Below are positions 33,553 through 62,791 of a stretch of DNA of 64,000 nt, piece by piece. The position numbers were made by a program, and so were the translations under genes. This stretch comes from Cloeon dipterum (Eukaryota > Arthropoda > Insecta > Ephemeroptera > Baetidae): assembly GCF_949628265.1 (NCBI RefSeq), contig NC_088787.1, positions 15,924,501 through 15,988,500 of the forward strand, read 5' to 3'. The notes below the pieces were generated by a model. The model was not told the DNA's origin, searched no databases, and saw only the letters and a list, made by a program, of their open reading frames with translations. Each line of letters opens with the position of its first letter. Positions within the stretch are counted from its first letter, which is position 1.

Positions 33553-33765
33553 TTAATGTGTGGGTCTGCAAATTCCAGATCTACGATCAAAAACATGCCC
33601 AATTTTGCAAGCAGACCTGAATCGTCCGTCAGCCATCTTTCCTCCATATCTTTTGATCTGCCGCATCCATGACGGTGTGGTCTCTTTGGGCTGATTGTGA
33701 GCACTTCCAGCACATATGACGATTATCACAATCAGCAGTACCAAAAGAAATGGCTTCACGTTCAT
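33553..33765 (-). CDS. Secreted one-loop secapin-like peptide, 70 aa
   Basis: Single coding exon. Residues 1-22 form a signal peptide (FLLVLLIVIIVICAGSA). The mature part is basic and polar (KRYGGKMADGRFR) and ends in one disulfide-loop module, CKIGHVFDRRSGIC, followed by RPTH. The C-x-x-G-x-V-F-D-x-R spacing matches the other members of the array. The start is the first ATG directly before the signal peptide. AATAAA on this strand lies at 33434-33439. This is the leftmost member of the minus-strand array. Confidence 0.8.
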   Translation of the reverse strand: MNVKPFLLVLLIVIIVICAGSAHNQPKETTPSWMRQIKRYGGKMADGRFRSACKIGHVFDRRSGICRPTH

Positions 33766-34178
33766 GTTTGTTTAGTCACGTCTCAATATGTGTTTCATTA
33801 GTTACGAACTGTAAGTTTAAATTTGCGTGGATGTGGCTTTGTAAATGGTTTCATTTAACTCAGGATGTTTGGTTAATTTAATCGGTACTCACTTCCTCTA
33901 AATGTTTCTCCTTTCTCCTTTATGTGTTCCCCACACGAGAATTGTAAATTTTGAATTTTTAACAAGAGTCGCCTTAGAAACAATTTAAAATTTTCAGTTT
34001 TGGAACAAAATTCATGCTTTTACAGTCCACAAACTAAATAAATTTAACAGTGACCAAGTAGAAAATGAATAAATTTCAGTACATTTTAAGTCCATTTTAT
34101 TTAAAAGTAACAAATAACAGTCCAAGATTCTAAACCATTATATTGGCTTAAGAACGTTCAATAATATTTAAAATTACG

Positions 34179-34811
34179 CTAGTATTTTGAGTCTTCAATG
34201 ATCAGGTTGAATGATGTTTTATTCCACCTGTTCTTCACAGTCCTAATTACCAACGAGTTGAGGTCAATTGCCTCCTTCCGCAAGTTTTGCTCTGTAATTA
34301 AAAGGTTTGATAAATACTTTATTCTTTTGCCTCAAAGAGAATGTTCTCTGAGGATGTTCTAATGATGAAATAGTATGTATTGAAAATTTTAAAAATAAAA
34401 TTATATACAGTACCATCCGTATTTTTAAAACAATTTGTCTCGTGCTTAACTGGTCACTGAAATTTTTAAAATTTAAAACACATACTGTGCTATAAGAACA
34501 AAATAGCTGAAAGGTTCAATAGTAAATTATTTACAAACAAATTATTGTGAGTTACCCAAATTGGGAAGCTGGCATGTTCCTGCGATCTCCACCAACGGCT
34601 TGCGGCAAATGATCCTTACGTCTGGGCGCTGTGCCGCTCTCCTCAGTCCTTTCTCTACCCTCACTGGAGCCACCCCTGCAGCATCCCCCTCCTTTACGAA
34701 GGGCTGCTGTCTGCAGTTGAGGAAAAGGCAGGCTGAGTTGAGGAGAGCGGCCGCGGCGAGCACCAGGCCCACCAGCAGCAGGCACACCTGCGCTTGAGTT
34801 GCCTGGCCCAT
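34179..34811 (-). CDS. Secreted or membrane-anchored peptide with single Cys loop, two exons
   Basis: Exon 1 is 34811-34556 and exon 2 is 34291-34179, joined by a phase-1 intron, giving 122 residues. Residues 10-31 are hydrophobic (VCLLLVGLVLAAAALLNSA), a signal peptide or anchor. The middle is basic and includes a short loop, ICRKPLVEIAGTC, with the x-G-x-C ending seen in some array members but without the Pro-x-Gly. Exon 2 encodes a Lys/Asn-rich tail ending DSKY. Exon 1 is markedly GC-richer than its neighbours. The donor (gtaact) is non-optimal, but the second exon has a good acceptor, an open frame in the right phase and an AATAAA at 34096. A read-through form would stop at 34542. A divergent member of the array or an unrelated neighbour. 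Confidence 0.6.
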
Positions 34812-35462
34812 CTGTGCGGGCAGACTGGCGCTGAACCCTGAAGCGGCAGACTGCTCTTCATCTTCGGCAGAACTGGTTTAATGACCTTCACTTGGCTGCC
34901 GGAACTAGATAATTATACGCTTATCCCCAATCCTTTCCTTAACACAAACATAGAGATGAAATTTACACAATATATTTTTCCAAATGTAAAACTGTATATT
35001 TAGGAATTTTAGTAGGAACAAATGCAAAAATGTTCGAGAAAATGATGGATTTCGTTTCATTATATTTAACAATTTATTTTGATAAAATCGCATACAAGAT
35101 TCAATTATTAAAATAGCTGGCATACCTCACAGTTAGTTTAATTTATGCGAATCCTTAATTTAATGAATGAATGAATTATCCTCACTCATAAATTTAATAA
35201 AGTTTCTTATTTTTCCTACACAATTAATTTTCTAATTATGAAAAGGTAAAGGGAAGAAATAGCAAAACTCCCTATTTGTGTCTAGATTTATTAAGCATCA
35301 TATTTTTATTTTCAAACTGGAGCAAAAAATTGAAGTTATCAACAAATACCAAAACAAGAATAATGCATTTTTACAATTCTCGTTATGGAAAAAACTAGAT
35401 AGATAAAACCATGATCGTATTTATCTAAATTTTCTTCTTTCTCCTAGAAATACAATTTTATT
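34812..35462. other. Intergenic spacer
   Basis: AT-rich; no exon seen. The poly(A) signal of the next minus-strand gene lies at 35457-35462. Confidence 0.5.
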
Positions 35463-35466
35463 CGGC

Positions 35467-36255
35467 CTATAGCTCGTCACCTGAAATCAAGTAAGATACA
35501 TTTATAAACATTTTTAACACATTTATTAATAAAAAAATCTCTGTACCTTGGGATCCTACAACAGGTCTACAAGTGTTCAAATGTGGGATCAATACCTGCC
35601 CCTCGGGACAATCTCTGATTGGAATATCACCTATCGACTCAGGAGAAACCTCTATTACATCCATTCCTAAAATTTAAAAATCTTGTTTAAAGTACAACAC
35701 AAATCATGTAACTCTACGCCATATTGTGAACTTTTGAATTAGAAAATTTACGAATGTTTTTGTTACAGTTATCTAGACTGTCACACAGATTTTTGTAGAT
35801 TAATTTCATGTCTTATGAAAAGTAAAATCACTGAATTTTTGAAATACATGAAAAGCTTTTCATGGAAAAATCAGCATAAGGTTGAATAATTACATGTACC
35901 TAGTCTGCTTGCTATTTGTTGCACGCATCCGTTTGACTCCTCATTAAAAATTTGTCCTTCTGGACAATTTTGTGTGACCTCTGCATGTTTAATATTGCTT
36001 GATGAGCTTTCTCCTTCAAATGTAAATAACACGGGTAAAAATTGGAAATGATAAATTCAAAATTATCAGCTTACCGTCGTCTTCAGTTATAACTCGACAT
36101 GTTTTTGACCTGGGGTCAAATACTTGGCCAGTAGGGCATGCTGGCGGATCTGAAACACTAAGAGGAACGTTTTCTGCGTTGGGAGCGCCTGGTATCAATA
36201 ACTGCCCTAAAACGGTGGCGAGAAAAAGGAAAAAGGAAGCAGTGGACGAACACAT
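35467..36255 (-). CDS. Secreted three-loop secapin-like protein, four exons
   Basis: Exons 36255-36075, 36013-35900, 35666-35547 and 35480-35467, all joined in phase 1, give 142 residues. Exon 1 encodes a signal peptide (STASFFLFLATVLG) and loop 1, CPTGQVFDPRSKTC. Exon 2 carries loop 2, CPEGQIFNEESNGC. Exon 3 carries loop 3, CPEGQVLIPHLNTC. The last exon supplies only 14 coding bases, ending the protein ...SQGDEL. The start is the ATG at 36255; upstream in-frame residues derive from a non-ATG extension. AATAAA (35457-35462) lies only 5 bp past the stop. Each loop is on its own exon, so loop number could change by exon duplication. The final DEL is reminiscent of ER-retention tetrapeptides, though GDEL is not the standard form. 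Confidence 0.82.
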
Positions 36256-36735
36256 TGCTTTCAATAAACTGGGACAGAGAAGTTTGAGAAAGGAAGCTCT
36301 TTTAACCAAAATGGTTTACAAAGAAGGGAAAGGATGTGTTTATCAAACCATGTTAAATATTTTTAACTTTTATTACCACATCATATGTTTCAATGGGAGA
36401 AACCAATTTTTACTTTATTTTTTCCTCCTCACCTAAAGAAAATTATTATTTTTTATCAGTTTAACACGTGATATTAATAAAAGTAGATATTTTTATTGCC
36501 ATTAAAGTTTTTCAATAATCTAGGCTATTCTTTTTAAGTTTATGCAATTTTTCGCGAGAGAAAGTATTTTAAAATCGCATTTTTATTTAAAAATATAAAT
36601 TTTTCACTTTTATAATAAATGTTTATTTGGGGCTGTGAGAGCAATTAAATCAAACAAATCCTCTCCGAGAAAGCAGAATGGTATTTTATTTGCTCTAATG
36701 ACATGTCCCAGGTGCGGTGTGCTCAAATAAATAGC

Positions 36736-37011
36736 TTATTTACTAATTTTGTACCGGATGCCCTGAAAAAGAAAAAAATGGAGTATTTTATGCAGGCTGT
36801 TTGTTGTCTTCTTACAATCCAAGATTTTGCGACACTTGCCAAGCATGTCGATTCGATAGCCGCGGTCCTCACACTCCATCCGATAATGAGCCTTTTCAAA
36901 ATCTCTGTAGGTACCCCATCCAAATCTGAAAACTGGTGCGAAAATTGGTTCCCCTTGGCATTGCAGCAGCAAGAGCGAAAACAAAACAAGATAAGGAGTA
37001 ACCGTGGCCAT
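36736..37011 (-). CDS. Secreted small Cys-containing peptide, 91 aa
   Basis: An ATG-initiated frame with a clear signal peptide (PYLVLFSLLLLQCQG). The mature part has an aromatic segment (FRFGWGTYRDFEKAHYRM) followed by CEDRGYRIDMLGKCRKILDC: one C-x12-C loop with Gly and an aromatic at family-like positions, plus a third Cys. A tract resembling a splice acceptor (ttttttctttttcag) lies inside the frame near residue 80, so the C-terminal tail could come from a different exon arrangement, but I see no matching donor. A divergent member of the array. Confidence 0.6.
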   Translation of the reverse strand: MATVTPYLVLFSLLLLQCQGEPIFAPVFRFGWGTYRDFEKAHYRMECEDRGYRIDMLGKCRKILDCKKTTNSLHKILHFFLFQGIRYKISK

Positions 37012-37550: not shown

Positions 37551-37863
37551 TTACTTAACACCAAATGTAAATATCTTTGTTCCTATACTTTTCTTTGTTT
37601 GATGGATTTTGCGGCATTTTTTCGACCTCTTGTCATAGTATTCGTTTTTACCGCACAGGGACCGGTCAGGTGCAGTTCCAACTAACAAAATCGTTTTGAC
37701 CAGCGTTTGTTTATAACTTTAAATGTCGAAAGTTACCTGGGTCGACTTCGAATTTCAAATTTCCATCGTCCTCTTCACTGGATGAGTAAGGTTGGCCCAA
37801 GGAAAGAACTGCCATAGTGCCAATGAAAATGAATAAGTATATGAAAAAATGCTTGAAAATCAT
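37551..37863 (-). CDS. Secreted one-loop secapin-like peptide, two exons
   Basis: Exon 1 (37863-37737) encodes a signal peptide (FFIYLFIFIGTMAVLSLG) and an acidic linker (SSSEEDDGNLKFEVDP). Exon 2 (37681-37551), joined in phase 1 across a 55-bp intron, encodes loop CGKNEYYDKRSKKC and a long basic tail (RKIHQTKKSIGTKIF). The product is 85 residues. The loop has Asn where most members have Gly, with an aromatic pair and D-K-R-S in family positions. The acidic linker plus basic loop domain suggests a propeptide and a cationic mature peptide. AATAAA is at 37442-37447. Confidence 0.75.
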
Positions 37864-38133: not shown

Positions 38134-38361
38134 TTAAGGAATTGGTTTCACGCAGATTTTTTTCCTCCGATGGTAAACGTATCCTGACGGGCAGGCCCTC
38201 TGAGGAAATTGCGAAAACAGTTCTCGATCAACAAATGGGTTCGAAGAGTACGATCCGATGTAAACTATTGGGAATACAGCTACAGCTTCTGTTCTCGCGC
38301 CGCTCGGAAAATATGATGGGATGCTCAGCGCAAAGTAAAACAGCAGCAACAGAAGACGCAT
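38134..38361 (-). CDS. Secreted one-loop secapin-like peptide, 75 aa
   Basis: Single coding exon. The signal peptide is residues 1-23 (MRLLLLLFYFALSIPSYFPS). A hydrophobic/aromatic linker follows (FPIVYIGSYSSNPFVDREL), then a C-terminal ACPSGYVYHRRKKIC-VKPIP. The short basic loop followed by a few residues and the end of the protein is the arrangement that most closely resembles secapin in this window. A donor-like CAG|gtac follows the stop codon, so the 3' UTR may be spliced. Confidence 0.8.
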   Translation of the reverse strand: MRLLLLLFYFALSIPSYFPSGARTEAVAVFPIVYIGSYSSNPFVDRELFSQFPQRACPSGYVYHRRKKICVKPIP

Positions 38362-39403: not shown

Positions 39404-39610
39404 CTAATTAGTATAAATTTTCACGCAACGACCTCGAACATTTTTTTGCCCATGTGGACATAAGTCTCCTCTTAGTTGGAAGTCAACCATGTTTAGAGGG
39501 GTTGGAGAAGATTCCACGCCGTTTTCATCTCTGTTGGCATGAGACTCAACCAGAAAAATATTCGCAAGAAGCAGGAGAGCGAACACTAATACAAAGTGAC
39601 CGCTCGCCAT
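39404..39610 (-). CDS. Secreted one-loop secapin-like peptide, 68 aa
   Basis: Single coding exon with a strong signal peptide (GHFVLVFALLLLANIFLVES), an acidic/polar linker (NRDENGVESSPTPLN) and a C-terminal loop CPHGQKNVRGRC followed by VKIYTN. The loop is two residues shorter than in most array members and ends G-x-C, like the plus-strand gene at 40719. AATAAA lies at 39048-39053, probably reached through a 3' UTR intron. Confidence 0.8.
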   Translation of the reverse strand: MASGHFVLVFALLLLANIFLVESHANRDENGVESSPTPLNMVDFQLRGDLCPHGQKNVRGRCVKIYTN

Positions 39611-40718: not shown

Positions 40719-40913
40719 ATGAGATTTTATCATCTCATCCTTTTCCTCGTCTGCGCCGCGGCTGTCACAACAGTGCTCGGACAAGGCGAAGATAACCACG
40801 TGGACACCCTGCAGCTGATCATGAGGAATATGAGGATGAGGATCTACGATCCCCGTTGTCCGAGAGGCCAGTACATTGTCCAAGGAACGTGCAAGTACCC
40901 TCTTATCGGATAA
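40719..40913 (+). CDS. Secreted one-loop secapin-like peptide, the only plus-strand member
   Basis: A single coding exon for 64 residues: signal peptide (FYHLILFLVCAAAVTTVLG), linker (QGEDNHVDTLQLIMRNMRMR), then CPRGQYIVQGTC-KYPLIG. The loop closely matches that of the minus-strand 39404 gene in length and in its G-x-C end, suggesting the pair arose by an inverted duplication. A donor (gtgagt near 40921) and an acceptor (tttccag near 40998) point to a spliced 3' UTR, with AATAAA at 41093-41098. Confidence 0.82.
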   Translation: MRFYHLILFLVCAAAVTTVLGQGEDNHVDTLQLIMRNMRMRIYDPRCPRGQYIVQGTCKYPLIG

Positions 40914-41215: not shown

Positions 41216-41678
41216 TTAATTTGATGCATAATTTAATCCTCCTCTTTCTGCAGTAAAACCACGAAAATATAGAAATATCGGATTAACTTTTGGATCTTGG
41301 ATCGATTCAATTTTTGCTTGTCTATTTTTAGACTAGAAAATGCTAAAGATCGTGGATTTTTCTGTAAAATTTTCACTAACTCCGATCAAGATAAAACACA
41401 AAAACACACAGTCAAGGAAATGAAATAATTATCAGTCTTTTTAAAATTTAAAAATTATTCGATAAAATATATTTTGTTATCTTACCAACAATTTGTCTGC
41501 ATTTGCAAGTTCTGAATTCAAAAATGTTGTTTTCTGGGCACCTCCTCGAAACACCTGGACATCTTTCATCTCTATCGGGGGCGTTGATTACGTTAAAAGG
41601 GTCTGTCTGCGATTCCGTCGCATTTTCAGCGACACAGAGGGAGCCAATTAGGAGACTTATGAGCACAATCACATACAT
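41216..41678 (-). CDS. Secreted four-Cys variant peptide, two exons
   Basis: Exon 1 (41678-41486) and exon 2 (41247-41216) join in phase 1 to 74 residues. After the signal peptide (VIVLISLLIGSLCVA) and a polar linker (ENATESQTDPFNVINAPD) comes CPGVSRRCPENNIFEFRTCKC, in which a C-P-x6-C loop is fused to a C-P-x9-C-x-C segment. This would allow two disulfides instead of one. Exon 2 adds ERGGLNYASN and a stop after a strong acceptor (ttttactgcag). A TATA-like ATATATAAC lies about 120 bp upstream of the start, and a TCAGTC initiator-like sequence near 41725. Confidence 0.72.
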
Positions 41679-42058: not shown

Positions 42059-42352
42059 TTACTGATGAATTAGTCGACAAATTTTAGCTCTAGAATCCCA
42101 GGTGTGCGTAGTTGGACACATAAATCTTGCCTTGCTGCCTGATATACTCCAAGGAGCGCCGGGGAATCGGGCATCTGTGGTGTTGACGGTGATTGCACTC
42201 TTGATAACGGAGGGTGGCTGATCAATTTGACCTCTCTCTTGAAGTGCCTTGGGCTTGCTGTCAATAACAGGAGCCAGCAGCAACAACGCAATAAGGAGCA
42301 CGATTGCAACGTTAGGATGACTTCGCATCATGCTGAGCTCACATGGATACAT
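42059..42352 (-). CDS. Secreted one-loop secapin-like peptide, up to 97 aa
   Basis: A single exon. The first ATG is at 42352, but the ATG pair seven codons in (42331 or 42328) places the Met directly before the hydrophobic stretch (VAIVLLIALLLLAPVIDS). A linker with one N-glycosylation sequon (NTT) leads to CPTTHTWDSRAKIC-RLIHQ. W-D-S-R in the loop is shared with the Q-rich trio and the 59.9-kb gene. AATAAA at 41941-41946. A truncated copy of this gene lies at 45082-45260. Confidence 0.78.
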   Translation of the reverse strand: MYPCELSMMRSHPNVAIVLLIALLLLAPVIDSKPKALQERGQIDQPPSVIKSAITVNTTDARFPGAPWSISGSKARFMCPTTHTWDSRAKICRLIHQ

Positions 42353-43675
42353 TACAAGTATAAATGAGAGAAATGTTTTTGGCGTCGCCTTTTTGAGGTC
42401 GCTTTGCGGTCTTTATTGCCGAGATTTTGTAAAGCAGGAAGCTAATAGCAAACTGCTGCAGTTTTTGTTTTAAAAATAATCATAATAGAAGTTATTAAAG
42501 ATAAAATGCAACTGCTTGGATTAATTTTTATCTTTTTAAAATCTACTGACCAAGAAGCAGAGACAATTTTTGCTTTCCCATAACAAACTACAACAAAAAG
42601 AGATATATTTAGCAGTCAAGAGAGCTTATAGAATGAGAAGTTTTAATTAACTAGAATAGAATCTGAAACTATTTTCACAATTAGAATTATCGTTTTGATT
42701 CAAACTTCAATTGAGCTCTTGAAAATTTAATTATAAAATAATGGACTAATACAAATATCAAAATACAGAAAAAATTGAATATTAATCCTTTCAGCTTATT
42801 AGTGGTTTCTTTGTCTAAATAATTTGTTGCAAAGCTGTCCCCTTTACGGATGACATTGTCCCAACTAGTGAGTTCTTGAGTGATTTTAATATTGCGATTG
42901 TTGCCTTAAAGGAATATATAAATATAGAAAAGTGACGAAATTTAGAAATTTTAGGGCGTGACAGATATACAAAGAGAAAAATTGAGTTAGAAGCATAAAT
43001 TTGAATTTGTGTCTGAATTCTCATATTTGGGTGCTGTGTTCCAAACCTCGGGTACGTTCTTTGCAATTCATGAAGAGTAAAGAGTGCGCGCGAGCAGCTT
43101 AAATGACAACTTATATATATGTATTAAAAATTTGAATAGGCTTGCTATATTGACACTGCGTTTAAACTCTTTGACCTATATCTCACCAACAGCCTCGCAT
43201 GGAATTGAAATCATCTGGCCACATCTAACAAATACTGACTTAGAAAACCTAGAAAGAGCTAAAATTCGCTATTTTAAGAAAGGTGCTTGGAATTTCTAAG
43301 CATGATAGATCTCGTTACGTTTATAAAATGACTCCAATTTGTATGTAACTGACTTAAAAACCTTGCCAGCACTGCTTGCCAATTCTGTCCAAAAACGTTT
43401 TGTGATTTTATATCCAATTATTTTATGTATTTATGACAAGGCAGAATAAACAAGAATAATAAAAAAATAGATTTAACTCACCAGGGACTGATGTGTATAA
43501 AATTTTATGAATCAAAGAAAAAAAAATAAACTATTAATTTGTGCTGAATTCTTCGAGACTGAAACTATGATTAATGATAACTGGCGTGGCACAGAATTTC
43601 TTGATACAGAAATAATTTTACAAGATTTGCTTGCCATAGCAATCATACTACGTTTTCTGTGGTAATACAACGTCC
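42353..43675. other. Spacer, partly duplicated
   Basis: The part near 42360-42640 is repeated at about 45180-45430 and 46780-46900 (shared tracts such as AACTGCTTGAATTAATTTTG and GCAAAGAGATATATTTA). No exon is supported between 42640 and 43675. Confidence 0.5.
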
Positions 43676-43800: not shown

Positions 43801-43879
43801 AGCTATTAGTCCCAGGCAGAAAATTTAGATCCGAAAAAATTGAGCAGAAACAAATGAATTAAGGACTAATCAATTTAAA

Positions 43880-44341
43880 TTAAGACCTATTTCTACATGT
43901 TTCCGTCCTGGGGTCCCAGACTTCACCTTCATCGCACCTTCTTTCAGGTGGATCGACAATTGATGGGATTCCGCGAATAGGATTGCTTGGTTGTGAGTTT
44001 GGTTGGCTGGGTCGTACTTGCTGTTGCGTTCTACTTTGCTGCCACGAAGGTCCCTGATTGAATTGCTGCAACAGTTTGATTGGTTATACTGGGGACAAAA
44101 GCGCAGGATAGTTTGGGACACTTACTTGCTGTTGATAAGGTGGAACGCCTGGTTGACCTTGGTTGACTCTTTGTTTGTTCGGCTGGGGTTGAAAGGGCTG
44201 CTGGCGTTGGTTAAAAGAATTCTGTGGTTGTCGTTGTAAAGGGTTGTTTAAATTCGCTCCCTGTCCAAAGTTCTGAGCACCACAGATGCAAATTATCGCG
44301 ATAAAGAATACGAGAAGACTGACTATTTTCACGTGCCACAT
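43880..44341 (-). CDS. Q/N/P-rich secreted one-loop peptide, copy 1
   Basis: Exon 1 (44341-44126) and exon 2 (44065-43880), joined in phase 0 across a 60-bp intron, give 133 residues. The signal peptide is HVKIVSLLVFFIAIICICGA. A 90-residue Gln/Asn/Pro-rich linker follows (NQRQQPFQPQPNKQR and similar), then the loop CDEGEVWDPRTETC-RNRS at the C terminus. The Pro of the usual C-P-x-G is replaced, but G-x-V-W-D-P-R is kept. The linker could be a propeptide, a mucin- or cuticle-like matrix segment or a transglutaminase substrate. The start is the Met directly before the signal peptide. A TATA-like GCATAAAAC lies about 70 bp upstream of the start. Confidence 0.85.
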
Positions 44342-44410
44342 ATTCAGGCTGTGACTTGCAAACAAGGAAAAATGTCCCAAGCTACTGGCTCACAGGGAGT
44401 GGCGACTTTG

Positions 44411-44478: not shown

Positions 44479-45081
44479 GTCCATCGGGATTATTATTGTC
44501 CTGAGTATGCCTTTTCCCAAAAATGATTTCCCAGATTGGATCCGGTCCCGGGAAATTGTTCTATTTTTTCTGGAAAACCCGAATTGTAAAAATAACTTCC
44601 CGGGATATCCTGGCTCGCTTGACGTCATTCCATATAAATTTGCAAATGTCTCGAAAATTTTTAATTTGGAGTAAATGGTGACAAATTATAATTTTAAAAT
44701 TTAAAACAATCATCTTTTTCTTGTTTCCCTTTCCTGATGCACCTTATCAAATTTTACCATCGGAGCAGTTTCATGCGAATTTGGACATTTGGAGGATTCA
44801 CAGAATTAGATTTTCAGAGATTTTTGAGGTAACGAAAAAATTGGGAATCTAATCACAAGTAATTTAAGCAAATAATATAAGTGTCACCAACAAATTCATC
44901 GCCAAAATATCCCGTCCAATCAACCTCCAAAATTTGGAGGTCGAATTTGCCTAGAACGGCTCATTGGGATGCCTGTCCCGAAAAAATACCCGATTCAGGC
45001 CCGATTCTCATATAACCGCTTCTACTTCTGCTCGGGATCCGGGTATTCCCGGGTACCCGAAAATTTCCCGGCTCGATGGAC
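44479..45081. mobile_element. Putative 0.6-kb inserted element with 8-bp inverted termini
   Basis: The ends GTCCATCG (44479-44486) and CGATGGAC (45074-45081) are perfect inverted repeats. Similarity between Q-rich copy 1 and copy 3 upstream sequence stops exactly at the left end, and the truncated 42.1-kb-like gene stops exactly at the right end. The interior contains repeated CCCGGG-rich tracts near both ends and no ORF of note. No clear target-site duplication is visible, so it could also be a rearrangement junction. Confidence 0.45.
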
Positions 45082-45260
45082 CTTCTCTAGCATCAATGCA
45101 TTAAGGAGCACGATTGCAACGTTAGGGTGACTTCGTATCATGGTGATCTCACAGGAATACATTAAATAACAAGTAAAAATGAGAGCGGAAAGCTTTTGAC
45201 CTTCGCATTTTTGAGGTCGCTTTGCGGTCTTCAATGCCGAGAATTTGAAAAGCAGAAAGC
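45082..45260 (-). pseudogene. Truncated copy of the 42.1-kb secreted-peptide gene
   Basis: From 45141 downward the sequence matches the first ~60 bp of the 42059-42352 gene (shared CCTAACGTTGCAATCGTGCT and the signal-peptide codons). It is cut off at 45081, where the inserted element begins, so the linker and Cys loop are missing. Upstream sequence to about 45430 is also duplicated. Confidence 0.75.
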
Positions 45261-45942
45261 CAATAGCATACATACTGCTGCAGTTTTTTTAATTAATCTG
45301 AATATAAAAGAGTATTATAGATAAAATGCAACTGCCTGAATTAATTTTGATCATAGAATCTACTGACCAAGTAGCAGAGACATTTGCACAACAAACTACA
45401 GCAAAGAGATATATTTAACAGTCAAGAGGGCTTATCGAATTAAAATTAATGAAAATTATAATTAAACCAGCAGTATCTGAAACTATTTCCACAAGTAGAA
45501 TTATATCGTTTTTATTTACATTATTGAGGTCTTGGAAATTTAACTATAAAATTCATTAACCATACAAAAATACAGAAAATCTTTCAACATGTTAATGCTT
45601 TATTTTACATAATAATTTGTTACATTGGTAAAATATTCGAATAAGCAAAATTTTAGTTTCGGAATACGTGTTAATTATATGCCTTAATAAATCGAAAAAT
45701 TAAACATTGCGAGAAGCTCATAATTTTCAAGAAGTTATTTTTACAAGGTGTTTCAACATTGCATTGTAAATAAGTACATTTTTAAGAGTCGAAATATCAA
45801 TATAATTTTGGAATTAAAAGGCAAAAATAGGTATTTATGTGGATAAAATAAAACAACTAGAAGTCCCAGAAAACTTAGATCCGAAAAAATTGGGCAGAAA
45901 CAAATGAATGAATCGAATGAATGAAGGACTAATCAATTTAAG

Positions 45943-46347
45943 TTAAAACCTAGATCTACATGTTTCCGTCCTGGAGTCCCAAAATTGATCTGCATCGCAC
46001 TCTCTTTCAGGTATATTGAGAAATGATTCCAGATTGCCGCCTACGTTTGATTGGCTGGGTCGTCCTTGCTGTTGAGTTCTACTTTGCTTCCAGTAAGGTC
46101 CCTGAGTATATTGCTGCAGCAGTTTGATTGGTTATACTGGGGACAAAAGCGCAGGATAGTTTGGTACACTTACTCTTTGTCTGTTCGGCTGAGGTTGAAA
46201 CAGCTGCTGGCGTTGGTTGAACGAATCCTGTGGTTGTCGTTGGTCAGGGTTGTTTAAATTCGCCCCCTGTCCAAAGTTCTGAGCACCACAGACGCAAATT
46301 ATCGCGATAAAGAATACGAGAAGGCCGACTATTTTCACGTGCCACAT
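45943..46347 (-). CDS. Q/N/P-rich secreted one-loop peptide, copy 2
   Basis: Exon 1 (46347-46174) and exon 2 (46113-45943) give 114 residues. The signal peptide is almost identical to copy 1 (KIVGLLVFFIAIICVCGA). The Gln-rich linker is shorter: exon 1 ends 14 codons earlier, at the donor AGA|gtaagt. The loop is CDADQFWDSRTETC-RSRF. It lacks the Gly of the loop and differs in most linker positions, so it has diverged more than copies 1 and 3 from each other. AATAAA lies at about 45599-45604. Confidence 0.83.
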
Positions 46348-47533: not shown

Positions 47534-47995
47534 TTAAGACCTATTTCTACATGTTTCCGTCCTGGGGTCCCAGACTTCACCTTCATCGCACCTTCTTTCA
47601 GGTGGATCGAAAATTGTTGTGACTGGTTGTGGTTGATTATTTGGTTTAGAGTTTGGGTTGGTGGGTCGTATTTGCTGTTGCGGTCTACTTTGCTGCCAGG
47701 ATGGTCCCTGATTGAATTGCTGCAACAGTTTGATTGGTTATACTGGGTACAAAAGCGCAGGATAGTTTGGGACACTTACTTGCTGTTGATAAGGTGGAAC
47801 GCCTGGTCGACCTTGGTTGACCCTTTGTTTGTTTTGCTGTGGTTGTAACGGCTGCTGGCGTTGGTTGAAAGAATTCTGTGGTTGTCGTTGTAAAGGGTTG
47901 TTTAAATTCGCCCCTTGTCCAAAGTTCTGAGCTCCACTGATGCAAATCATCGTAATAAAGAATACGAGAAGGCCGACTATTTTCACGTGCCACAT
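47534..47995 (-). CDS. Q/N/P-rich secreted one-loop peptide, copy 3
   Basis: Exon 1 (47995-47780) and exon 2 (47719-47534) give 133 residues, the same structure as copy 1. The signal peptide is KIVGLLVFFITMICISGA, the linker is Gln-rich, and the loop region (PPERRCDEGEVWDPRTETC-RNRS) is identical to copy 1, while the linker between Gln tracts differs (KPNNQPQPVTTIF). Loop identity with linker divergence suggests selection on the loop or recent gene conversion. A canonical TATAAAAT lies about 75 bp upstream. AATAAA near 47205. Confidence 0.85.
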
Positions 47996-48870: not shown

Positions 48871-49149
48871 TTAATACGGAGATGGATTTCTAGCTATTAG
48901 GGTGTGCACCTTACAGCGATTTAATATCTTGACAAAAACTGATCCTGGCGGACAATGATGTCTTGTTGGCGAACCGGCCACACCGGTCGGCCCTTCTGGA
49001 GGTCTCGCGGGGCCTCCAATTTGTCCTCCAGCGGGACCAGCGGGACCGCTTGGACCAGGAAATCCACTGGGGATACGTTGATATTGTCCGAACGCTACCA
49101 ATATTGCTGACGAGAGCAGAAAAAGTAACAAACCAATGTGACGTGCCAT
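48871..49149 (-). CDS. Secreted secapin-like peptide with collagen-like Gly/Pro linker, 92 aa
   Basis: A single exon. The signal peptide is residues 1-21 (IGLLLFLLSSAILVAFG). Residues 25-62 are Gly/Pro-rich with several G-x-P/G-P-x triplets (GFPGPSGPAGPAGG). Then HHCPPGSVFVKILNRC-KV, the loop in this window most like secapin: C-P-P-G-S start, alternating hydrophobic and basic residues, and N-R-C end. A TATA-like TTTAAATA is at about 49187-49194. The Gly/Pro tract is too short and irregular for a stable collagen helix on its own. Confidence 0.85.
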   Translation of the reverse strand: MARHIGLLLFLLSSAILVAFGQYQRIPSGFPGPSGPAGPAGGQIGGPARPPEGPTGVAGSPTRHHCPPGSVFVKILNRCKVHTLIARNPSPY

Positions 49150-50085: not shown

Positions 50086-51939
50086 TCAGACGTGGTGCAG
50101 CAGTGAATAGTCAACGTACGGTTGGCATTTTCCTCGGTAAACCTGATAGCCTGGGGGGCATATGGATAGACCGTGATATCTGTATGGGAACAAACTGCCA
50201 TAATTCAGATACCCCTGAAAATAAATCATTATAAGACCAGGCAAATAAAGTGTTTAATGAATCACTCACCCAAAATCTGTTGGCATACGGCAACGAATTA
50301 ATGCCTTTGCTCAATGAAAGGGCGTTATACAAAAATGGCAAGTATGCAAAATATGGGTGATTAAGTCCGTGCGTAAATTGATTAAGTGAGTTGCCGGCGT
50401 AAAGGGGGTTCAGTCGATAAAACCACTAAAATGTTGATAAAATCATTAATTTTACTGTTTGAAGTAAAATACCAGGTCACTAAACCTACCTGAAGAGGAT
50501 GGAGATAAGAAGCCTTGCAAACTCCCTGCTTATTCTGCTTGTAGCCTGGCAGACACTTGTCTTTGTTTAAGAGATGAATAGCACCTGATTGTAGAAGTGG
50601 CCTCGCAGATGTGACAAGTAATGGTGATGACAGAAATGCTGGTGCTTGTTGGTTATCATTTGTCTACGAACGAAATACACTTTTCTTAGTACAGCTTAAT
50701 TACAGATTTCCCGTCTGCGCCGAGAAATGTTAACAAGGTAATTAGGAAATCGCACACATATTTTGCACACCAAGTGATCTTATCTAGTATACAATTAAAA
50801 CCTCTTATTACTAAGCTGCGACAGAGATAATTACGCGTTTTAAAGAGTAATTGTTCCTGTAATAGAAGACGTCATTTTTGCATGATGATTAAAAGATGTG
50901 ATCGTCCTCTTTTAATGCTATAGAGATGGCAGAGCATTCTTCGAAATCCCGTCCTGACTATTTTAATTAGTAAATATTTCATTTAAATGACCTAAATTGC
51001 TCGGCTCTGCACGGATTTGTATATGATGGATATCAAGGTATTTATTAAAATTTTTAGAGGAAATAATTGAATACCATGCTTTCGTACTGCACAGCGGCTT
51101 TCTGGCCCCATGGGCCTCATCAGCAGTATTTTTACTCCAAAATAAAATTACCCCAGTATCAGCTACAGAGAATTCCGAATCAGCAATCGTTGGAAACGTC
51201 CGACTTAACTCATAGCTGAGTAAAAATCGAAAAGAAGAAACGAAAGACAAAATCTCGTCCTCCCTTTGATTTAACTGTTGTCCATTCCTTTTCTTATTAT
51301 ATAAATTTTTTAACTTTTTTAGTTTTCATTTAAAAGTAAATGCTAGTTTTACGGCAACATCCTGATTAAATTGATGACTAGAAGAGTTTGAGCTCGAGAT
51401 GATTGAGATATATAGTCTCACCAATTCACCTTCTGCCACAATTCAAATACAAATGCACCCTCGATTAGCTTGCACACCCAATTATATAAATTTTAAGGAC
51501 AGTATTGTAAAATTCCTAAATTGTATAGTTCAGTAATGTGAATTAAATTTTATAATTTTTGGTTTTTCTCATTTTTCATAAAATGTTTACACCACTAATT
51601 ATCAAAGCAAGAGAAACCCATTTGCAGGAACACAAGATCGGCTTGTGCAATCGGAACGTTAACTTAATTGTGTCCAGCAGCGGTACAAATTTTCAGATTA
51701 AATTGAAAAATGTGTGAGAATAAAGACAGAGTCAAAGATTAATCATTTGAAAGTGTAAATATGGAAATTCATCTCGCAAAACTTACCCCGAACCTAACCC
51801 TGACGGAAGACTTGCACCTGCCCTCGCTCCAGTGTAACCCTGGTGGGCAGTCATCGTAATCGTGGGGTGGCTCTTGCGCCCGTGCCCGACATCCATGCAA
51901 AACAAGGAAAAAGACAAGTAACGAGACAAGCTGCTTCAT
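50086..51939 (-). CDS. Secreted three-loop secapin-like protein, four exons, phase-0 introns
   Basis: Exons 51939-51787, 50663-50490, 50425-50270 and 50214-50086 join in phase 0 throughout to 203 residues. Exon 1 encodes the signal peptide (KQLVSLLVFFLVLHGCRARA), an acidic linker and loop 1, CPPGLHWSEGRC. Exon 2 carries a hydrophobic linker and loop 2, CLPGYKQNKQGVC. Exon 3 has no Cys but is rich in Tyr, Asn and Leu (WFYRLNPLYAGNSLNQFT). Exon 4 carries loop 3, CPPGYQVYRGKC, and a short tail. The continuous phase, good donors (gtaagt, gtaggt, gtgagt) and the final stop support the model. Intron 1 is 1.1 kb and could hide another exon. It is the largest array product and the only multi-loop one without phase-1 introns. 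Confidence 0.8.
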
Positions 51940-52524: not shown

Positions 52525-53540
52525 TTATTTCTTAGTGCGTCTTCCTTTAAAACACATTTTTCGGTTTCGGTCCATAATGTCACCTTCCATGCATATTATT
52601 CTTCGTTTTGGAACGGCTATTATCGAAAATTGCACAATGTCACTCTCGACTTCAGGATCTTCAGTTACGGTGGAATCTTTCTTTGTGTCTGTCGTGTCTG
52701 CAATCAAATTAAAACAAAATCAGAATCTCATAAATTTTCTTACTGCCCTAATTGTTATCGGATGAATATTATCTAATATTTTAAAAAGCAGGATCAACAT
52801 CTATTTGTTTCATTATTTGCCTCGATCGAGATATGAACATGACCCATCACCTCAGATAAAATCGAGACAAAACTTGACTATTCCATACAAACGTTCCGAT
52901 TGATTATTCATCACAAAAACGATTTGCTGCATTCGTCATGACCTGATTTAACAACTGGAATATTATTCTCTGAATGGCTTATTGTGTAACATAATAGTAC
53001 TACTTAATTTACGCCATCAAAGAATAGAGTGATCACAAAAATTGAAAACTGAAAATTGAGCTTCTAGAAATATAATTAATCTCAAAACATCAGAAACACG
53101 CACGAGTTTCGTGTGAGTAATAAGCATTTTCGGCTATAGAAGCCTCGTCAGCAGCCCACTGATGAAGATATCATTTGATCACGTATACGTTTGATACCTG
53201 ATGCGTGCAGGCATCCTCTATTTTCATCTATTTTATGTTGCAGTCCAAATCAAATCTTATAATTTTCAAAACAAATATCGCAGGCTTTAAAATATCACTC
53301 TATCCAGAGACAAAGGGTTTGAAAACAAATTTTGTGTGTTTAAAACATTTCAATATTTAAACTAATGCCAAACTTACTTGTTGGAACACACATATCCTTG
53401 GCAGCGTCATAAAGATAGTTTTCTGGACAGTATTCATCCTCGTGCATTTTGGCAGGCGCGCAAAATGCAGGTAGGGAAAAGGCTGCAACCACCACCACCA
53501 CCGCCGCCGCCACAAAAAAGCTATGCGGCGCGTTGGCCAT
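52525..53540 (-). CDS. Secreted two-loop secapin-like protein, two exons
   Basis: Exon 1 (53540-53378) and exon 2 (52697-52525) join in phase 1 to 111 residues. The signal peptide contains a homopolymeric AAAVVVVVAA stretch encoded by a GCC/GTG-type trinucleotide repeat. Loop 1, CPENYLYDAAKDMC, ends exon 1. Exon 2 has an acidic linker (DSTVTEDPEVESD), a basic site (PKRR), loop 2 CMEGDIMDRNRKMC, and a basic tail (FKGRRTKK). The PKRR immediately before loop 2 could be a convertase-type cleavage site releasing a cationic C-terminal peptide. First of three neighbouring paralogues with identical architecture. Confidence 0.8.
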
Positions 53541-54043: not shown

Positions 54044-54993
54044 TTATATCAAAAATATAAATTTATTCTTATTACTTTTGACAGATTTTTTATAGCAAAT
54101 TTTCCTTTCTTCTTGATACTCATAGCCATTTTTGCATCTTCTAGAGGGGAGAGCTCCCAATATGCTTAAAGGTGTAAAGCGAAGCTGCTTTGGTGATTCA
54201 TCATTCACGCCATAGCCTGCAAATTTATACAAAAATCACCATTCCAAGCAATATTTATTTATTTTAATTATTATTATTCTTGCTCAAAATGAAATACAAT
54301 TAAATATAAAATTAAAGGGTTATACAAAGCAAGAAAGGGTGAACAGCGCTAGTGAAAAAATGCTAAAACGATCCATCACTGACAATGAGTAATATCACGC
54401 CGCACTGAGCCGCAATAGATTAATATTTTAAAGTTAATATAATCTTTATTATGATAGGTCAGATTTCTGTAAAAAGCTTAAGTAAAAACTTAGGCAGTAC
54501 TCCACAGTATTTTTTGTTAATACTGAACTGCATGATTTGTGTCAGTTTACAGCTGCCTTTAACTATTGTGAACGCAATCGGTCATTTTTAATAATTTATT
54601 TGCGTGTAAAAAAAGTTAAATACTGTTGATAGAAGCTAGTGAAGGCAGGAGCACTCGAGGTTGTCAGAAATTTTCAGGGGAAATTAAATGCAGCTTTTTC
54701 AGTTTATAAAGAGCTGCTTTTTCCGTATTTCTACAGAAAAAATATTCATCAGAAATTCCCAGAGGAATTAAATTCCATTTCCAGTGAAAAATAAAAAAAT
54801 ACTTGTATCAAAATAAAATTTGCGCATCAAATTTAGTCGAAATTCTACCTGTTTCGATGCAACTGTCAAGGTTGACGTCATAGTATGTACTATCTGGGCA
54901 GTATTCGTCTTCCGCAGTTTGGGAAAAGGTAAAATCTGCTAAAATAACAACGCTGACGCTGAGAAAAAAAATGAACCTCAACGCTTTTGCCAT
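54044..54993 (-). CDS. Secreted two-loop secapin-like protein, two exons
   Basis: Exon 1 (54993-54849) and exon 2 (54216-54044) join in phase 1 to 105 residues. The signal peptide is FIFFLSVSVVILADFTFS, followed by EDEYCPDSTYYDVNLDSC (loop 1, acidic), closely similar to loop 1 of the 53.5-kb gene (DEYCPENYLYD). Exon 2 has a linker, the basic PSRR, loop 2 CKNGYEYQEERKIC, and a Lys-rich tail (YKKSVKSNKNK). Acidic loop 1 and basic loop 2 recur in the trio. An AATAAA occurs in the last codons (about 54060). Confidence 0.82.
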
Positions 54994-55492: not shown

Positions 55493-56246
55493 TTATTCTC
55501 TTTTTGATTTTATTATCCGGTTTTCGTTTATACAAAAGTTTCGTCTTTTTTCGTAACGGAAACCAGATCTACAGCGTCTGATGGGTATATTAGTCCCTGT
55601 GATGCTGAAACCTGTGACGTCAAGTTCATCATCATTGGCTGAAAATAAACGTAAAAGAAAATTAAAAGCTATAAATTCGTTAGTATACTTGTTTATTCTT
55701 GCAGTCTATAGTTAATATCAATAAAAGTACTGAACGATGGAAATAAGTCTTGTTAAAATAAATTTTTTATTTCTTTCTTCAATATCAGTCTGGTTAAATT
55801 CAGAAAATATCAGGCAAACACATAATTAGATGCAATCAATGCAAATTTTTACATTTAATGCACTTTTTGCCAATTGTCAGAAAAAAATGATTTCCAAGCC
55901 TGGGAATTATTTTTCTTTTAAAATTATATTTCAAATTATCTACCTCCTAGACAGAAAAGTCACAAGTAGTCAAACACATAAATGCTTCTTGATGGGGCCG
56001 AACTTACAAGTATAATGAGACAGGGCGACACAATTAACAAACAAGTTTGAAAAGACCTTGTCCAGGAGGACGAAGCCCGAGTGAAACCAGAGAAAAATAA
56101 ATCATACCTAAATCGATGCACTTGTCTAATTTCTGATCGAAGTATGCGTTTTGTGGACACTCAAAAAGCTCTCCTTGTGACGTGGTTAAACTCGTAGATA
56201 TAGCACAGACAATAAGCGGGATAAATAAAAATGTAACTTTTGCCAT
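55493..56246 (-). CDS. Secreted two-loop secapin-like protein, two exons
   Basis: Exon 1 (56246-56108) and exon 2 (55638-55493) join in phase 1 to 94 residues. The signal peptide is VTFLFIPLIVCAISTSL. Loop 1 is CPQNAYFDQKLDKC. Exon 2 has an acidic start (NDDELDVTG), a linker with IPIRR, loop 2 CRSGFRYEKRRNFC, and a basic tail. The Met was chosen because the residues upstream in the same frame lack an ATG before a signal peptide. AATAAA at 55420-55425. Third member of the 52.5-56.2 kb trio. Confidence 0.82.
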
Positions 56247-59195: not shown

Positions 59196-59543
59196 TCATC
59201 CGACTGTCGCAATGCACCTCTTCAATAATGTGGACCATATCTCACCGCCTGTGCACTTTCTATAGGGAGGCTTGACAATCGTTAAAGTGGTGCTGTTCAC
59301 ATTCTCTTCTTGTTCCTCTGTTGGAAAAAGGTGAACATGCATGAATGTTATTTAAAATAGTTGCGTCAATTTACCGAATTTTTCCACACAACGTTTTAAA
59401 TTAATGCTGTAAATTTCCCCAGTAGAGCACTGTTTGACATTTGAAGCTGCCAGTGAAATACTTTCTAACTCATCTGCTTTGATTTTTAACAGCAAGGCGC
59501 ACAGCAGTAAAAGTAGGCTTAAAGAAAACACTACCTTCTCCAT
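59196..59543 (-). CDS. Secreted two-loop secapin-like protein, two exons
   Basis: Exon 1 (59543-59375) and exon 2 (59317-59196) join in phase 1 across a 57-bp intron to 96 residues. The signal peptide is VVFSLSLLLLLCALLLKIKA. Loop 1 is CSTGEIYSINLKRC-VEKF, loop 2 CTGGEIWSTLLKRC-IATVG. The two loops are strikingly alike (G-E-I-[YW]-S-x3-L-K-R-C), so this protein probably arose by duplication of its own loop. K/R residues precede each loop (KPPYRK before loop 2). AATAAA at 59008-59013. First of the MEKV/MEAV trio. Confidence 0.87.
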
Positions 59544-59857
59544 CTCGCGCTGGCGCTCAACTGACACTCTGTTTACTAAAGGCTTAGTACCGTTTCTAGC
59601 CAACTCCACCTGCCTCTCTTAAATCAATTTAAATTAGTGCTTGTGAAAAAACACGATTAATTTGGCTATAAAATATCTTAAACTTTATTGACGATTGAAC
59701 AGCTACAACTTTCTTGAGCAAAAATTTGTTGCAGATTGGCTGTCAATATCAATTAAAAACTTAAGTTAATGAACTGCTATTAGATGAAAAAATAAACACT
59801 TTCTTAAACAGACCATGAAGTTAGATTGATCATAAGATTGTTAACTTTTATGATATA

Positions 59858-60188
59858 TCATTTAATTGTTGTGATGCATCTTTTCAGACGACTGTCCCAA
59901 GTTTTTCCGTTGCTGCATTTTCTGTCTGGTGCGTTTCCTAAATTCAAAACTGCGCTGCTGTCCTGATCTTCAAAGTCCTCTGTTAAATAAGCAATGAATT
60001 TGATTTAAATTTTGGTCGACGAATTGATTACCAAATTTTTCTTCGCAACGTCTGAATTTTGCAATGTAGATTTGACCACTGGGACATCGTTTGGCATTTA
60101 GCAACGATAGGGCAACACCGTCGGACTCATTTGCGTGGGACAAGCTACCCAGTAAAATCAGGCACGAGAGCAGCACAACCGCCTCCAT
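59858..60188 (-). CDS. Secreted two-loop secapin-like protein, two exons
   Basis: Exon 1 (60188-60032) and exon 2 (59979-59858) join in phase 1 across a 52-bp intron to 92 residues. The signal peptide is EAVVLLSCLILLGSLSHA. Loop 1 CPSGQIYIAKFRRC-EEKF, loop 2 CSNGKTWDSRLKRC-ITTIK. An acidic linker (EDFEDQDSS) and the basic PDRK come before loop 2. The intron position and exon lengths match the two flanking genes. AATAAA at 59684-59689. Confidence 0.87.
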
Positions 60189-60763
60189 CTCAATCCAACT
60201 CTTCACTGGAACCTTCTCACTCGCGGGAGCCCCACACAAGCTTATAAACTGTAAGCTCTTTCTTAGTCATCTGGCATGTGCAAAAATATCAAAGTTTTTC
60301 AACGTGCTTTCAAAGTGCTCAACCCCGCTCGTCATATAAGTATTTTTATTTAGTAGTAAAAAAATACTGATGTACAGTCGTGAATAAATTATATTATAAC
60401 GCTGCGTATTTCTTTCTTTTTCATATTCGTGGCTCTTTATAAAATGCAAAATAGCTGAATCTCTGAAAAAAATATAGTTATGTGTGATTTTAAATACCTT
60501 ACTTAAATTAAAATCATCTAAATTTGAATATAGAAATTACTCTGTTTTCAGTTAGCGATATATTGTTGGAACATTAATAAACCATGCGAAAAGGGCGTTT
60601 GTTAAAAACATATAAAAAGCGAAATAATTGAATAAAAATGTATTGATGACCATTTTTATTTTACAAAAGCCTGGGATGAGAAAACAATTGACATAATATA
60701 GATACTTCTAATTAAATTAACAATTATCACGAAAGTAGAAATTTGCAGATGCATATGAAACAA

Positions 60764-61118
60764 TTAAAACACTGTGACGCATCTATTAAGACGGCTGTTC
60801 CACACTTGACCATTTCTGCACTTGTTTCGTTTTGGTGCTCCAGCTATATTCAGTACTGTGCTCTCCGTTGATTCTTGGTGCTCATCTAGTAAAATGTTGG
60901 AAAATAATCAGACTGTAATAAAATGCGAAAATAAAATCTGTACCAAAACTTTCCACGCAACGTTTGAAGAAAGTGCTGAAGGCCTCTCCAGGGGGGCAAC
61001 GTTTTGATTGGAATGCAGCAAGCACAACTCCTTCTGTTTTTGTATCGTCTGTCCTGGCTTCCAGCATTTTCAGTTCGCACAACAACAGCAGGCTGCAGAG
61101 AAACGCCACCTTCTCCAT
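60764..61118 (-). CDS. Secreted two-loop secapin-like protein, two exons
   Basis: Exon 1 (61118-60944) and exon 2 (60885-60764) join in phase 1 across a 58-bp intron to 98 residues. The signal peptide is VAFLCSLLLLCELKMLEA. Loop 1 CPPGEAFSTFFKRC-VESF, loop 2 CRNGQVWNSRLNRC-VTVF. The linker is acidic (DEHQESTES), then GAPKRNK before loop 2. Closest in architecture to the 59.9-kb gene. AATAAA at 60655-60660. Confidence 0.87.
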
Positions 61119-62642
61119 CTCGCTTCAACTCACAACTGCGCTCATTGATGGTGAGGTTGTGTTTTCATTTTACAAACAACACTTCTTGATCAGTAAAATT
61201 TTAACCGAATATGACTATTTCTAGTGATGATTTAATTGAAAAGAACAAAATCGCAATGAACATTTTAAATGTTTGTAAATGTATCACATGTGCAAACACA
61301 AAATGACATGCGGTTTTCAAACATTGCTTCGTCTGTGTGGGTGGCAAACTTGCTAATCAGGTATGTAAGCACTTTATACTGGCTGCTCACTGCCAGAGAA
61401 ATGGCAAAGGTGGAAAGTTGAGTGTTTTGAAATGCTAAATTAACTCATTGTCAGCAGGCTGGGAGTCGCACTGGCGTCGACTCGGCACTTTAGCTGGTTT
61501 TCGCACCTTTCCAGTGGCTTAAGGGGAAATGTTTGGCGTTTAAATCAAAGATCTCGCGGTGCGCGGAGGTGAAAAGATTGCCAAATTAAGACACTCGGGA
61601 GGTTTTATTCGGATCTGGTGAGCTCATAGCCACGGGATGTGCTGAGCAGACGAGGTTTAAAAAAAACTATAACCCTAATTAATGTTTTCCAAATTTGTGG
61701 CACACAATACACAATAATGTCCAATTCATTTTTTTTAATTTAGCTTGATAATTTACAAGTCCCTTTGGAGTATTTGCTTTTTAAATAAGTGAAATAAAAG
61801 CTATAGCGGCTTTGGCGTACTACTACACATCAATCAACTTTCATATCTTAATTTTTAATTTAAGCATAACTAATTTAAATATAAAAGTTGAAGCATTATT
61901 ATTAACTTAGGCAACAGAGTGTTGTGCGTTTCAAATGAGAATAATAAACTCTATCCAATTAATTGCCACAATAATGATGTACACAGTTCTCTTGTATAAG
62001 CTCAATTTCTTGTATGTCTCATGTTGGCTTGAAGCAGTTAGCAGGAACTCAAATTTTGACTCAACCTGAAATAATGTTACCCATTGTTAACATCCATATT
62101 ATGCTTCCCGTACATACAAACAACTGTGGGTATATACTTTAATGGAACACTAGCAAGCATTTTAAAGGGATTTTGCCGATTTTACTTGCTTCCAATTTGT
62201 GAAAAGCAGAAAAATTCTATGGAAGCTTACTTTAACAAAATCTCATGTTTCAGCTGACCTTTTCATTGCAATGGAAAATATTTTAGATTTGATACTCACT
62301 TATACGTACTTAAATTTTATCGCACTTAAATATTCTTACCACCGACCACTTTGGTGCATCTTTTTAATCTGGGATGGAATATTTCATCATTTTGGCATTT
62401 CCTTGCTGGCGCGTTTGAAATTTGTAAGGTCGTTTGACTGCTGCTTGTATTAAAGGTTGCCGTGTCAACTAAAAATCAAGGTCACTGGTTTTATAATAAA
62501 TATGTTTTTCTTAAACGATTTGCTGAAGCAAACATTACGATGATTGAACTTTAAGAAACGGACTTAAATTAAGCTCTTTAAAGCTTGATATTTAAGGTGA
62601 TTTTTCGAATATTGCTTTTCATCCAATTATAAGATTATATAC
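61119..62642. other. Spacer containing the right repeat copy
   Basis: Holds the repeat at 61376-61662. I searched the minus strand for a second-loop exon to follow the 62.7-kb exon and found none with a usable acceptor in the right phase and a C-x-x-G-x(n)-C pattern. Confidence 0.45.
61376..61662. repeat. Dispersed repeat, right copy
   Basis: Counterpart of 57144-57442, with the same shared tracts and small insertions and deletions. Lies just beyond the third gene of the trio. Confidence 0.65.
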
Positions 62643-62791
62643 CTGTCGAGGAAGAGATGCATTTACTCTTCGCGTTATCAAAAACCTTTCCTGGAGGACA
62701 AACTTGATATCCGTGAGTGCGCTGGGAAGCACTTTTAAACACCAGATTGCACACCAAGAGAAGAGCAAAAGGCAACGCAACCTTCACCATC
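62643..62791 (-). pseudogene. Secapin-like first exon with a frameshift
   Basis: Read on the minus strand, an ATG at 62791 begins a signal-peptide-like frame (MVKVALPFAL) that is thrown out of frame near 62761 by one extra base and then meets a stop. The rest of the exon is intact in the next frame and contains the loop CPPGKVFDNAKSKC and a donor (ACAG|gtatat at 62643). I found no matching second exon. It is either a recently inactivated member of the array or carries a single-base assembly error. Confidence 0.65.

Follow-up and report, generated by a model that had tools for sequence, protein, structure and literature searches.

A tandem array of small secreted-type proteins in the mayfly Cloeon dipterum whose 14-residue Cys loops mostly resemble the C-terminal hairpin of CBM14 domains

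The locus described here touches on three things already known separately, namely CBM14 domains, secapins, and secreted peptides encoded in tandem arrays. In CHIT1, the second disulfide of the CBM14 domain (PF01607), Cys450–Cys463, has a 14-residue spacing and is followed by an exposed tryptophan, Trp465 (PMC4844120), and in Avr4 the residues Asp102 and Tyr103, which come after Cys101, touch chitin (PMC6128652). The GBP cytokines have one disulfide and a short beta-hairpin turn and follow the consensus C-x(2)-G-x(4,6)-G-x(1,2)-C-[KR] (PMC6439351). Secapin-like peptides have been found in Hymenoptera, Lepidoptera, Coleoptera, Diptera and Hemiptera, with a role in normal physiology suggested; their origin has been left open, the question being whether they come from a segment of a growth factor receptor or by convergence (PMC11335235). 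The locus in question lies at 33553–62790 of a 64,000-nucleotide stretch of the Cloeon dipterum genome (NC_088787.1, positions 15,924,501 to 15,988,500, hereafter the window), where an initial annotation had described about 21 tandem genes for secreted, secapin-like peptides with one Cys loop each. Judged from their sequences, most of these loops match the C-terminal hairpin of CBM14 better than they match secapin.

The estimate of gene number stands, since six-frame reading combined with intron placement gave 22 gene models with 33 Cys loops in this interval (Table 1), all but R15 on the minus strand. The loops are 14 residues long in 26 cases and 12–13 residues long in 5, the remaining 2 being atypical (R14, R21). 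Three more array genes lie within 6 kb beyond the window edge, namely R0, whose two loops are at 64742 and 64387 in window coordinates, and a pair of genes with 12-residue loops (66378 and 68560). With all three counted, the 12–13-residue loops go from 5 of 33 to 7 of 37; no other members were recognised by eye in two pattern lists covering 100 kb on each side. The picture of one loop per gene holds for most genes; it had missed eight genes with two loops (R1–R7) or three (R20), separated by phase-1 introns, and R8 probably has three loops as well. Short introns of 52–66 bp occur in R2, R3, R4, R10–R12, R18 and, for two of its three introns, R20, all others measuring 174–680 bp; R10–R12 have phase-0 introns, whereas those of R1–R7, R18 and R20 are phase 1. 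Read-through at an in-frame stop in R10–R12 was considered and rejected, because a three-way alignment places a 60-bp GT-AG intron there. A hydropathy test, used rather than a signal-peptide predictor, found a strong hydrophobic stretch within the first 32 residues of all 23 models R0–R22, in keeping with the secreted-type precursors first proposed, and 16 of 20 models have exactly two cysteines per loop after residue 22 (the exceptions are R7, R14, R19 and R21).

The loops are more numerous than chance would give. In 31.6 kb there are 13 instances of the pattern CP-x-G-x(7,9)-C, compared to a mean of 0.2 and a maximum of 2 when the DNA was resampled 60 times under an order-2 Markov model, and the flanks of 133 and 99 kb contain 0 and 1; for C-x2-G-x2-[YFWV]-x6-C the count is 17 against a mean of 0.23 and a maximum of 2 in resampled DNA, with 5 and 0 in the flanks. 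Strict patterns of this kind thus exceed their resampled frequency by more than 60 times and are rare in the 232 kb of flank. The loose form C-x2-G-x(7,9)-C, found 27 times against a mean of 4.2 and a maximum of 12, is enriched only about six-fold, so that R14, R19 and R21 are weak members to be held lightly. The fuller motif first proposed, C-x-x-G-x-V-[WFY]-D-x-R-x(2-3)-C-R, is real in a minority of loops, while most do not fit it; a basic residue directly follows the loop in 10 of the 26 14-residue cases.

A profile search that put the loops in another characterised family had been named at the outset as refuting the secapin assignment, and for the 14-residue loops this is largely the result obtained, the family being CBM14. 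The Pfam scan took in 19 whole array models (R1–R7, R9, R11–R20 and R22, the R12 sequence still holding a few intron residues) and the first exon of R8, and used the curated cut-offs of 22.1 bits for CBM_14 and 25.9 bits for Secapin. CBM_14 matched 11 of the 19 models, four of them above its cut-off (R1, R2, R6, R20) and seven below (R3, R4, R5, R7, R9, R12, R17). The best stretch always falls inside positions 23–49 of the 53-position profile, i.e., at its hairpin end only, and R1, R2, R3, R6 and R20 have two such stretches each. By comparison, the Secapin profile found two models, R9 at 16.8 bits and R20 very weakly, and went above its cut-off in 0 of 19 array models, 0 of 5 proteins of other clusters and 0 of 4 genome-wide matches; on these scores membership of the array in Secapin was rejected. 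CBM_14 was the one Pfam family to exceed its cut-off in these models; TIL, EGF and further Cys-rich families did not, and none of 10 shuffles of R1–R5 and R20, made with cysteines and N-terminus fixed, matched either CBM_14 or Secapin.

The likeness extends to individual residues of the hairpin. Canonical domains for comparison were 20, chosen for the most part among the highest-ranking, of at least 149 CBM_14 matches in this genome (the search covered 190 Mb in 10 contigs and scored only the best candidates, so genome-wide counts are lower bounds). Their hairpin is exactly 14 residues long in 19 cases; the twentieth (L066) is longer and was excluded from the counts. Glycine at position 4 is present in 15 of the 19 canonical hairpins and 18 of the 26 14-residue array loops, compared to 15 of 280 background C-x12-C segments; the corresponding figures are 19, 23 and 40 for an aromatic residue at position 7, and 16, 15 and 26 for aspartate or asparagine at position 8. 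A matrix built from the 19 canonical hairpins gave scores of 4 or more to 16 of 26 array loops and to 1 of 280 background segments, the array mean being 7.0 and the best of 200 inner shuffles −9.1. The Mann–Whitney p for array versus background, 1e-16, is too small, because the array copies are related to one another. Alignment of profiles with hhalign gave 93% for the 14-residue loops against CBM14 (E 3.8e-7 for one comparison) and 85% for the 14-residue against the 12-residue loops.

Proteins already on record in the databases point the same way. A search of 5.8 billion proteins returned four matches (P0001–P0004), all of them from Cloeon dipterum, so that the family is apparently lineage-restricted and the expansion lineage-specific, as first supposed; the search relies on shared exact words, which far relatives can escape. 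R2 is identical to P0001 at 90 of 98 positions and R3 to P0002 at 85 of 92 (92% in both cases, splice junctions included), the four-exon R20 is 67% identical to P0004 over its full length, and P0003 is like the 12-residue-loop genes found elsewhere in the genome. The divergence between these proteins and the present models suggests separate lineages or species, within Cloeon or near it. PF01607 is annotated on P0001 and P0004, and UniRef names the latter ‘Chitin-binding type-2 domain-containing’. P0001, P0002 and P0004 share the same longest contig figure (248,875), which suggests that they belong to a syntenic array, and their transcription is likely because the published C. dipterum gene models were made using Augustus and RNA-seq splice hints (PMC7250882). 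When the three pairs of orthologs are compared, identity is 85 of 98 positions within the loops as opposed to 129 of 171 elsewhere after residue 22, which agrees with the initial impression of faster change outside the loop.

The explanation we favour is that isolated hairpins of the CBM14 type expanded in the mayfly lineage and act in glycan contact, and for structure and broad role taken jointly we consider the chances to be about even. The small secreted proteins would be built from the C-terminal beta-hairpin of the peritrophin-A/CBM14 domain, present once to three times and joined by variable linkers, each hairpin shut by its own disulfide and the remainder of the domain lost. Modules would have multiplied inside genes, consistent with the phase-1 introns between loops, and genes would have multiplied in tandem. 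Such hairpins may serve as short glycan-contacting modules for chitin or chitin-like surfaces, e.g., the fungal wall, the animal's own cuticle or the matrix of gill and gut, with weak binding per hairpin and a gain in avidity in two- and three-loop members, and the role would be surface defence or matrix assembly. That chitin itself is the ligand has near one chance in three. The gene structures, the hydrophobic N-termini, the profile resemblance of the 14-residue loops to CBM14 hairpins and the loss of the other CBM14 parts are observed; common ancestry with CBM14 as opposed to convergence, the pairing of the disulfides, binding to any glycan and the biological role are inferred.

Several observations weigh against this explanation. 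Eight of the 19 scanned models have no CBM_14 match (R11, R13–R16, R18, R19, R22), and a genome-wide, exon-by-exon CBM_14 search meets the array just once, at the second loop of R20 (18.1 bits, below cut-off); the array is nearly invisible to such a search because single loops are too short, and the models that pass do so on two or three loops summed. The matrix score is below 0 in 5 of the 26 14-residue loops, and position 13, mostly hydrophobic in canonical hairpins, is polar in 18 of the 26 compared to 3 of 19. The 12-residue loops align poorly to CBM14 (11% by hhalign), so that any link from secapin-like loops to CBM14 runs via the 14-residue loops only. No array protein has the full six-cysteine domain, the first three cysteines and the last being missing, and two positions past the hairpin, where 13 of 19 canonical domains have an aromatic residue, none of the 26 array loops has one. 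With the other cysteines and this aromatic gone, what the array retains is a hairpin that closes on itself, and two features of ordinary chitin binding are lost. In Avr4, moreover, the chitin chain spans the whole domain and the residues of the hairpin tip face away from it (PMC6128652). Ordinary CBM14 chitin binding by these loops is doubtful, judging from their sequences, since the post-hairpin aromatic that corresponds to Trp465 of CHIT1 and Tyr103 of Avr4 is absent from every one of them. Tryptophan at position 7, found in 7 of 26 array loops versus 1 of 19 canonical hairpins, is perhaps a replacement contact. UniRef calls P0001 and P0002 ‘Sushi domain-containing’, while Pfam gave no Sushi match in either at E 10, and the AlphaFold2 model of a two-loop protein has low confidence (pLDDT 52.6). 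Lastly, a profile search of the PDB can be read both ways. In favour of the explanation, the best match (E 0.0081) covers Cys loops of like spacing in 8in3, a polyphenol-binding protein of 25 kDa, and 7bwe, a chitin binding beak protein (E 0.19), and scarabaecin, 1iyc (E 0.21), come up further down; against it, many unrelated WD-repeat and von Willebrand factor matches lie in between, so that convergence on the 14-residue motif is possible. Single array proteins had no useful match in the PDB.

The 12–13-residue loops are a different case, and they are where the secapin assignment keeps some of its force. Those of R8, R15, R16, the two genes past the window edge and two clusters on contig C1 resemble secapin (PF17521) more than the 14-residue loops do, and the question arises whether the whole family might be made up of secapin-like effectors, i.e., single-disulfide protease inhibitors or antimicrobials, an idea we regard as unlikely. 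The C1 clusters, near 41.05 and 41.32–41.34 Mb (L029, L031, L049, L050), are separate from the array and hold one-loop genes with 12-residue loops, mostly CPPGxxxxRGxCR, that begin like secapin, sit near the C-terminus and are the most secapin-like in this genome, one gene at 41.05 Mb reaching 20.3 bits with the Secapin profile. For P0003, a relative with a loop of this type, AlphaFold2 predicts a beta-hairpin (pLDDT 83 for block 51–60; 69.6 and pTM 0.25 for the whole model). The likeness of the array to secapin consists of a secreted-type precursor and a Cys loop near the C-terminus, with a CPPG start in a minority of members. The combination of CPPG and a 12-residue loop is limited to R8 and most C1 genes, and CP-x-G to R15 and R16, both being absent from most array genes, whose loops mostly have 14 residues and only 5 of 33 in the window the shorter length; eight genes have several loops, an arrangement for which the excerpts of the secapin literature examined gave no description, and scores stay below the Secapin cut-off in the array, the other clusters and the genome at large. 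Elsewhere in the genome, at least three 14-residue loops lie on C4 near 27.795–27.797 Mb, and a relative of R10–R12 lies on C2 near 10.515 Mb.

The same short loops raise the prospect that these are GBP/ENF cytokines, in which the loop would be the ligand of a Methuselah-like receptor steering haemocytes and stress responses. The likeness consists of a short Cys loop with glycine four from the first cysteine, and the GBP consensus fits 3 of the 33 window loops where 0.03 would be expected, P0003, both of the genes with 12-residue loops beyond the window edge and, in the C1 clusters, 5 of 6 loops; the insect ‘chemokine’ 2rps also came up at E 0.78 when a second loop profile was run against the PDB. 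The other 30 window loops do not fit, however, and the Pfam family GBP_PSP (PF02425) has no match in the array, its six genome matches lying elsewhere and below threshold (best E 0.1). A ligand with one conserved receptor would also hardly be expected to come in many diverse copies, or with two or three loops in each precursor. Membership of the array in GBP/ENF was rejected for lack of a PF02425 match and for the poor fit to the consensus; as a rival account it is kept for the 12–13-residue loops, and for the locus as a whole it is improbable, more so than the secapin account.

Two further accounts were weighed. Scarabaecin resembles chitin-binding hairpins, and if the array proteins were scarabaecin-like antifungals, an immune sub-case of that expansion, the hairpin would bind fungal chitin and basic residues would add membrane activity. 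Scarabaecin 1iyc, a small peptide, was retrieved by both loop profiles, the second of which (E 1.1) also brought in unrelated proteins via the signal peptide, and the part of the protein after residue 22 carries a net positive charge in 16 of 20 models, the highest being +8; both matches are nonetheless below significance and stand amid unrelated ones, and R20 has a net charge of −12. We would call this possible, on the unlikely side. The array could also encode structural proteins of cuticle, peritrophic matrix or eggshell with low-complexity linkers, which agrees with the Gln/Asn-rich linkers of R10–R12, the Gly/Pro-rich linker of R9 and the CBM14-type hairpin itself, and less well with fast turnover, small size and recent tandem duplicates; to this we give a similarly modest chance.

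Table 1. Gene models of the array in window coordinates, from right to left, with their Cys loops, exons and Pfam results.
Gene	Position	Strand	Loops and structure	Pfam result
R1	62326..62790	-	two loops; exons 62790-62643, 62468-62326; GT-AG phase-1 intron	CBM_14 27.7 bits, over 22.1
R2	60764..61118	-	two loops; exons 61118-60944, 60885-60764	CBM_14 26.2 bits, over cut-off
R3	59858..60188	-	two loops; exons 60188-60032, 59979-59858	CBM_14 21.5 bits, just below cut-off
R4	59196..59543	-	two loops; exons 59543-59375, 59317-59196	CBM_14 18.9 bits, below cut-off
R5	55493..56246	-	two loops; exons 56246-56108, 55638-55493	CBM_14 20.3 bits, below cut-off
R6	54044..54993	-	two loops; exons 54993-54849, 54216-54044	CBM_14 22.2 bits, 0.1 above cut-off
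R7	52525..53540	-	two loops; exons 53540-53378, 52697-52525	CBM_14 14.3 bits, below cut-off
R8	50086..51939	-	probable three-exon gene, loops of 12, 13 and 12 residues; may be two genes	first exon alone: no match
R9	48871..49149	-	one loop	Secapin E 0.0067 and CBM_14 E 0.024, both below cut-off
R10	47534..47995	-	one loop; 60-bp phase-0 intron	
R11	45943..46347	-	one loop; paralog of R10 and R12	no CBM_14 or Secapin match
Degenerate R13 duplicate	45022..45273	-	signal-peptide part retained, loop absent	
R12	43880..44341	-	one loop; paralog of R10 and R11	CBM_14 14.5 bits, below cut-off
R13	42059..42328	-	one loop	no match
R14	41448..41678	-	single exon, atypical loop, extra Cys	no match
R15	40719..40913	+	one 12-residue loop; fits GBP consensus	no match
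R16	39404..39610	-	one 12-residue loop	no match
R17	38134..38361	-	one loop	CBM_14 14.2 bits, below cut-off
R18	37551..37863	-	one loop; exons 37863-37737, 37681-37551	no CBM_14 or Secapin match
R19	36736..37011	-	divergent, one loop; three cysteines after residue 22	no match
R20	35467..36255	-	three loops; exons 36255-36075, 36013-35900, 35666-35547, 35480-35467; three introns, all phase 1	CBM_14 38.9 bits, E 9.7e-10
R21	34542..34811	-	weakest member; 12-residue Cys loop without Gly	
R22	33553..33765	-	one loop; left end of array	no match

Duplication is visible at the DNA level as well. The R12 and R10 regions are 90% identical, and a repeat pairing 42279–42772 with 45089–45579 (77%) is the basis for the degenerate duplicate of R13. 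Also inside the array are a second repeat (57144–57341 versus 61376–61586, 71%) and, at 57544–57961, an imperfect palindrome of 418 bp, 76% identical to itself when reverse-complemented, that may be a mobile element of the hairpin type. Next to the array lie exons of a C-type lectin gene (26604–28162, plus strand; Lectin_C at 26.2 bits, over cut-off, on 27899–28159), possibly immune-related and with a signal-like and coiled-coil stretch upstream seen by eye, and an ankyrin-repeat gene (28978–29232, plus strand, perhaps reaching to about 30780), with Ank_4 at 39.9 bits in its first reading frame and a second ankyrin-like frame at 30496 judged by eye. Farther off, a cysteine-rich frame at about position 6346 of L022 (window coordinate −33655) was named TIL-like by eye and may encode a protease inhibitor. 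Rfam searches at gathering thresholds and tRNA scans gave no matches.

Among the literature matches listed there was no paper on this array, nor one on free-standing CBM14-type hairpins as a tandem family, a weak negative in both cases given that most matches lie beyond those. Protein databases may under-count such loci, as only three array orthologs were recovered from C. dipterum. A bolder possibility, speculative and in our view unlikely, is that a CBM14 hairpin was freed early in winged insects and then shortened from 14 to 12 residues, giving rise to secapin-like and perhaps GBP-like peptides; with equally little confidence, the array family might then be seen as a missing link between chitin-binding domains and secapin-like peptides, which elsewhere later became venom and immune effectors. 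Overall, if the array is indeed an expansion of repeated, self-contained CBM14 hairpins, it would show how a carbohydrate-binding domain can yield small effector-like peptides, and it would offer a testable origin for the secapin-like peptides.

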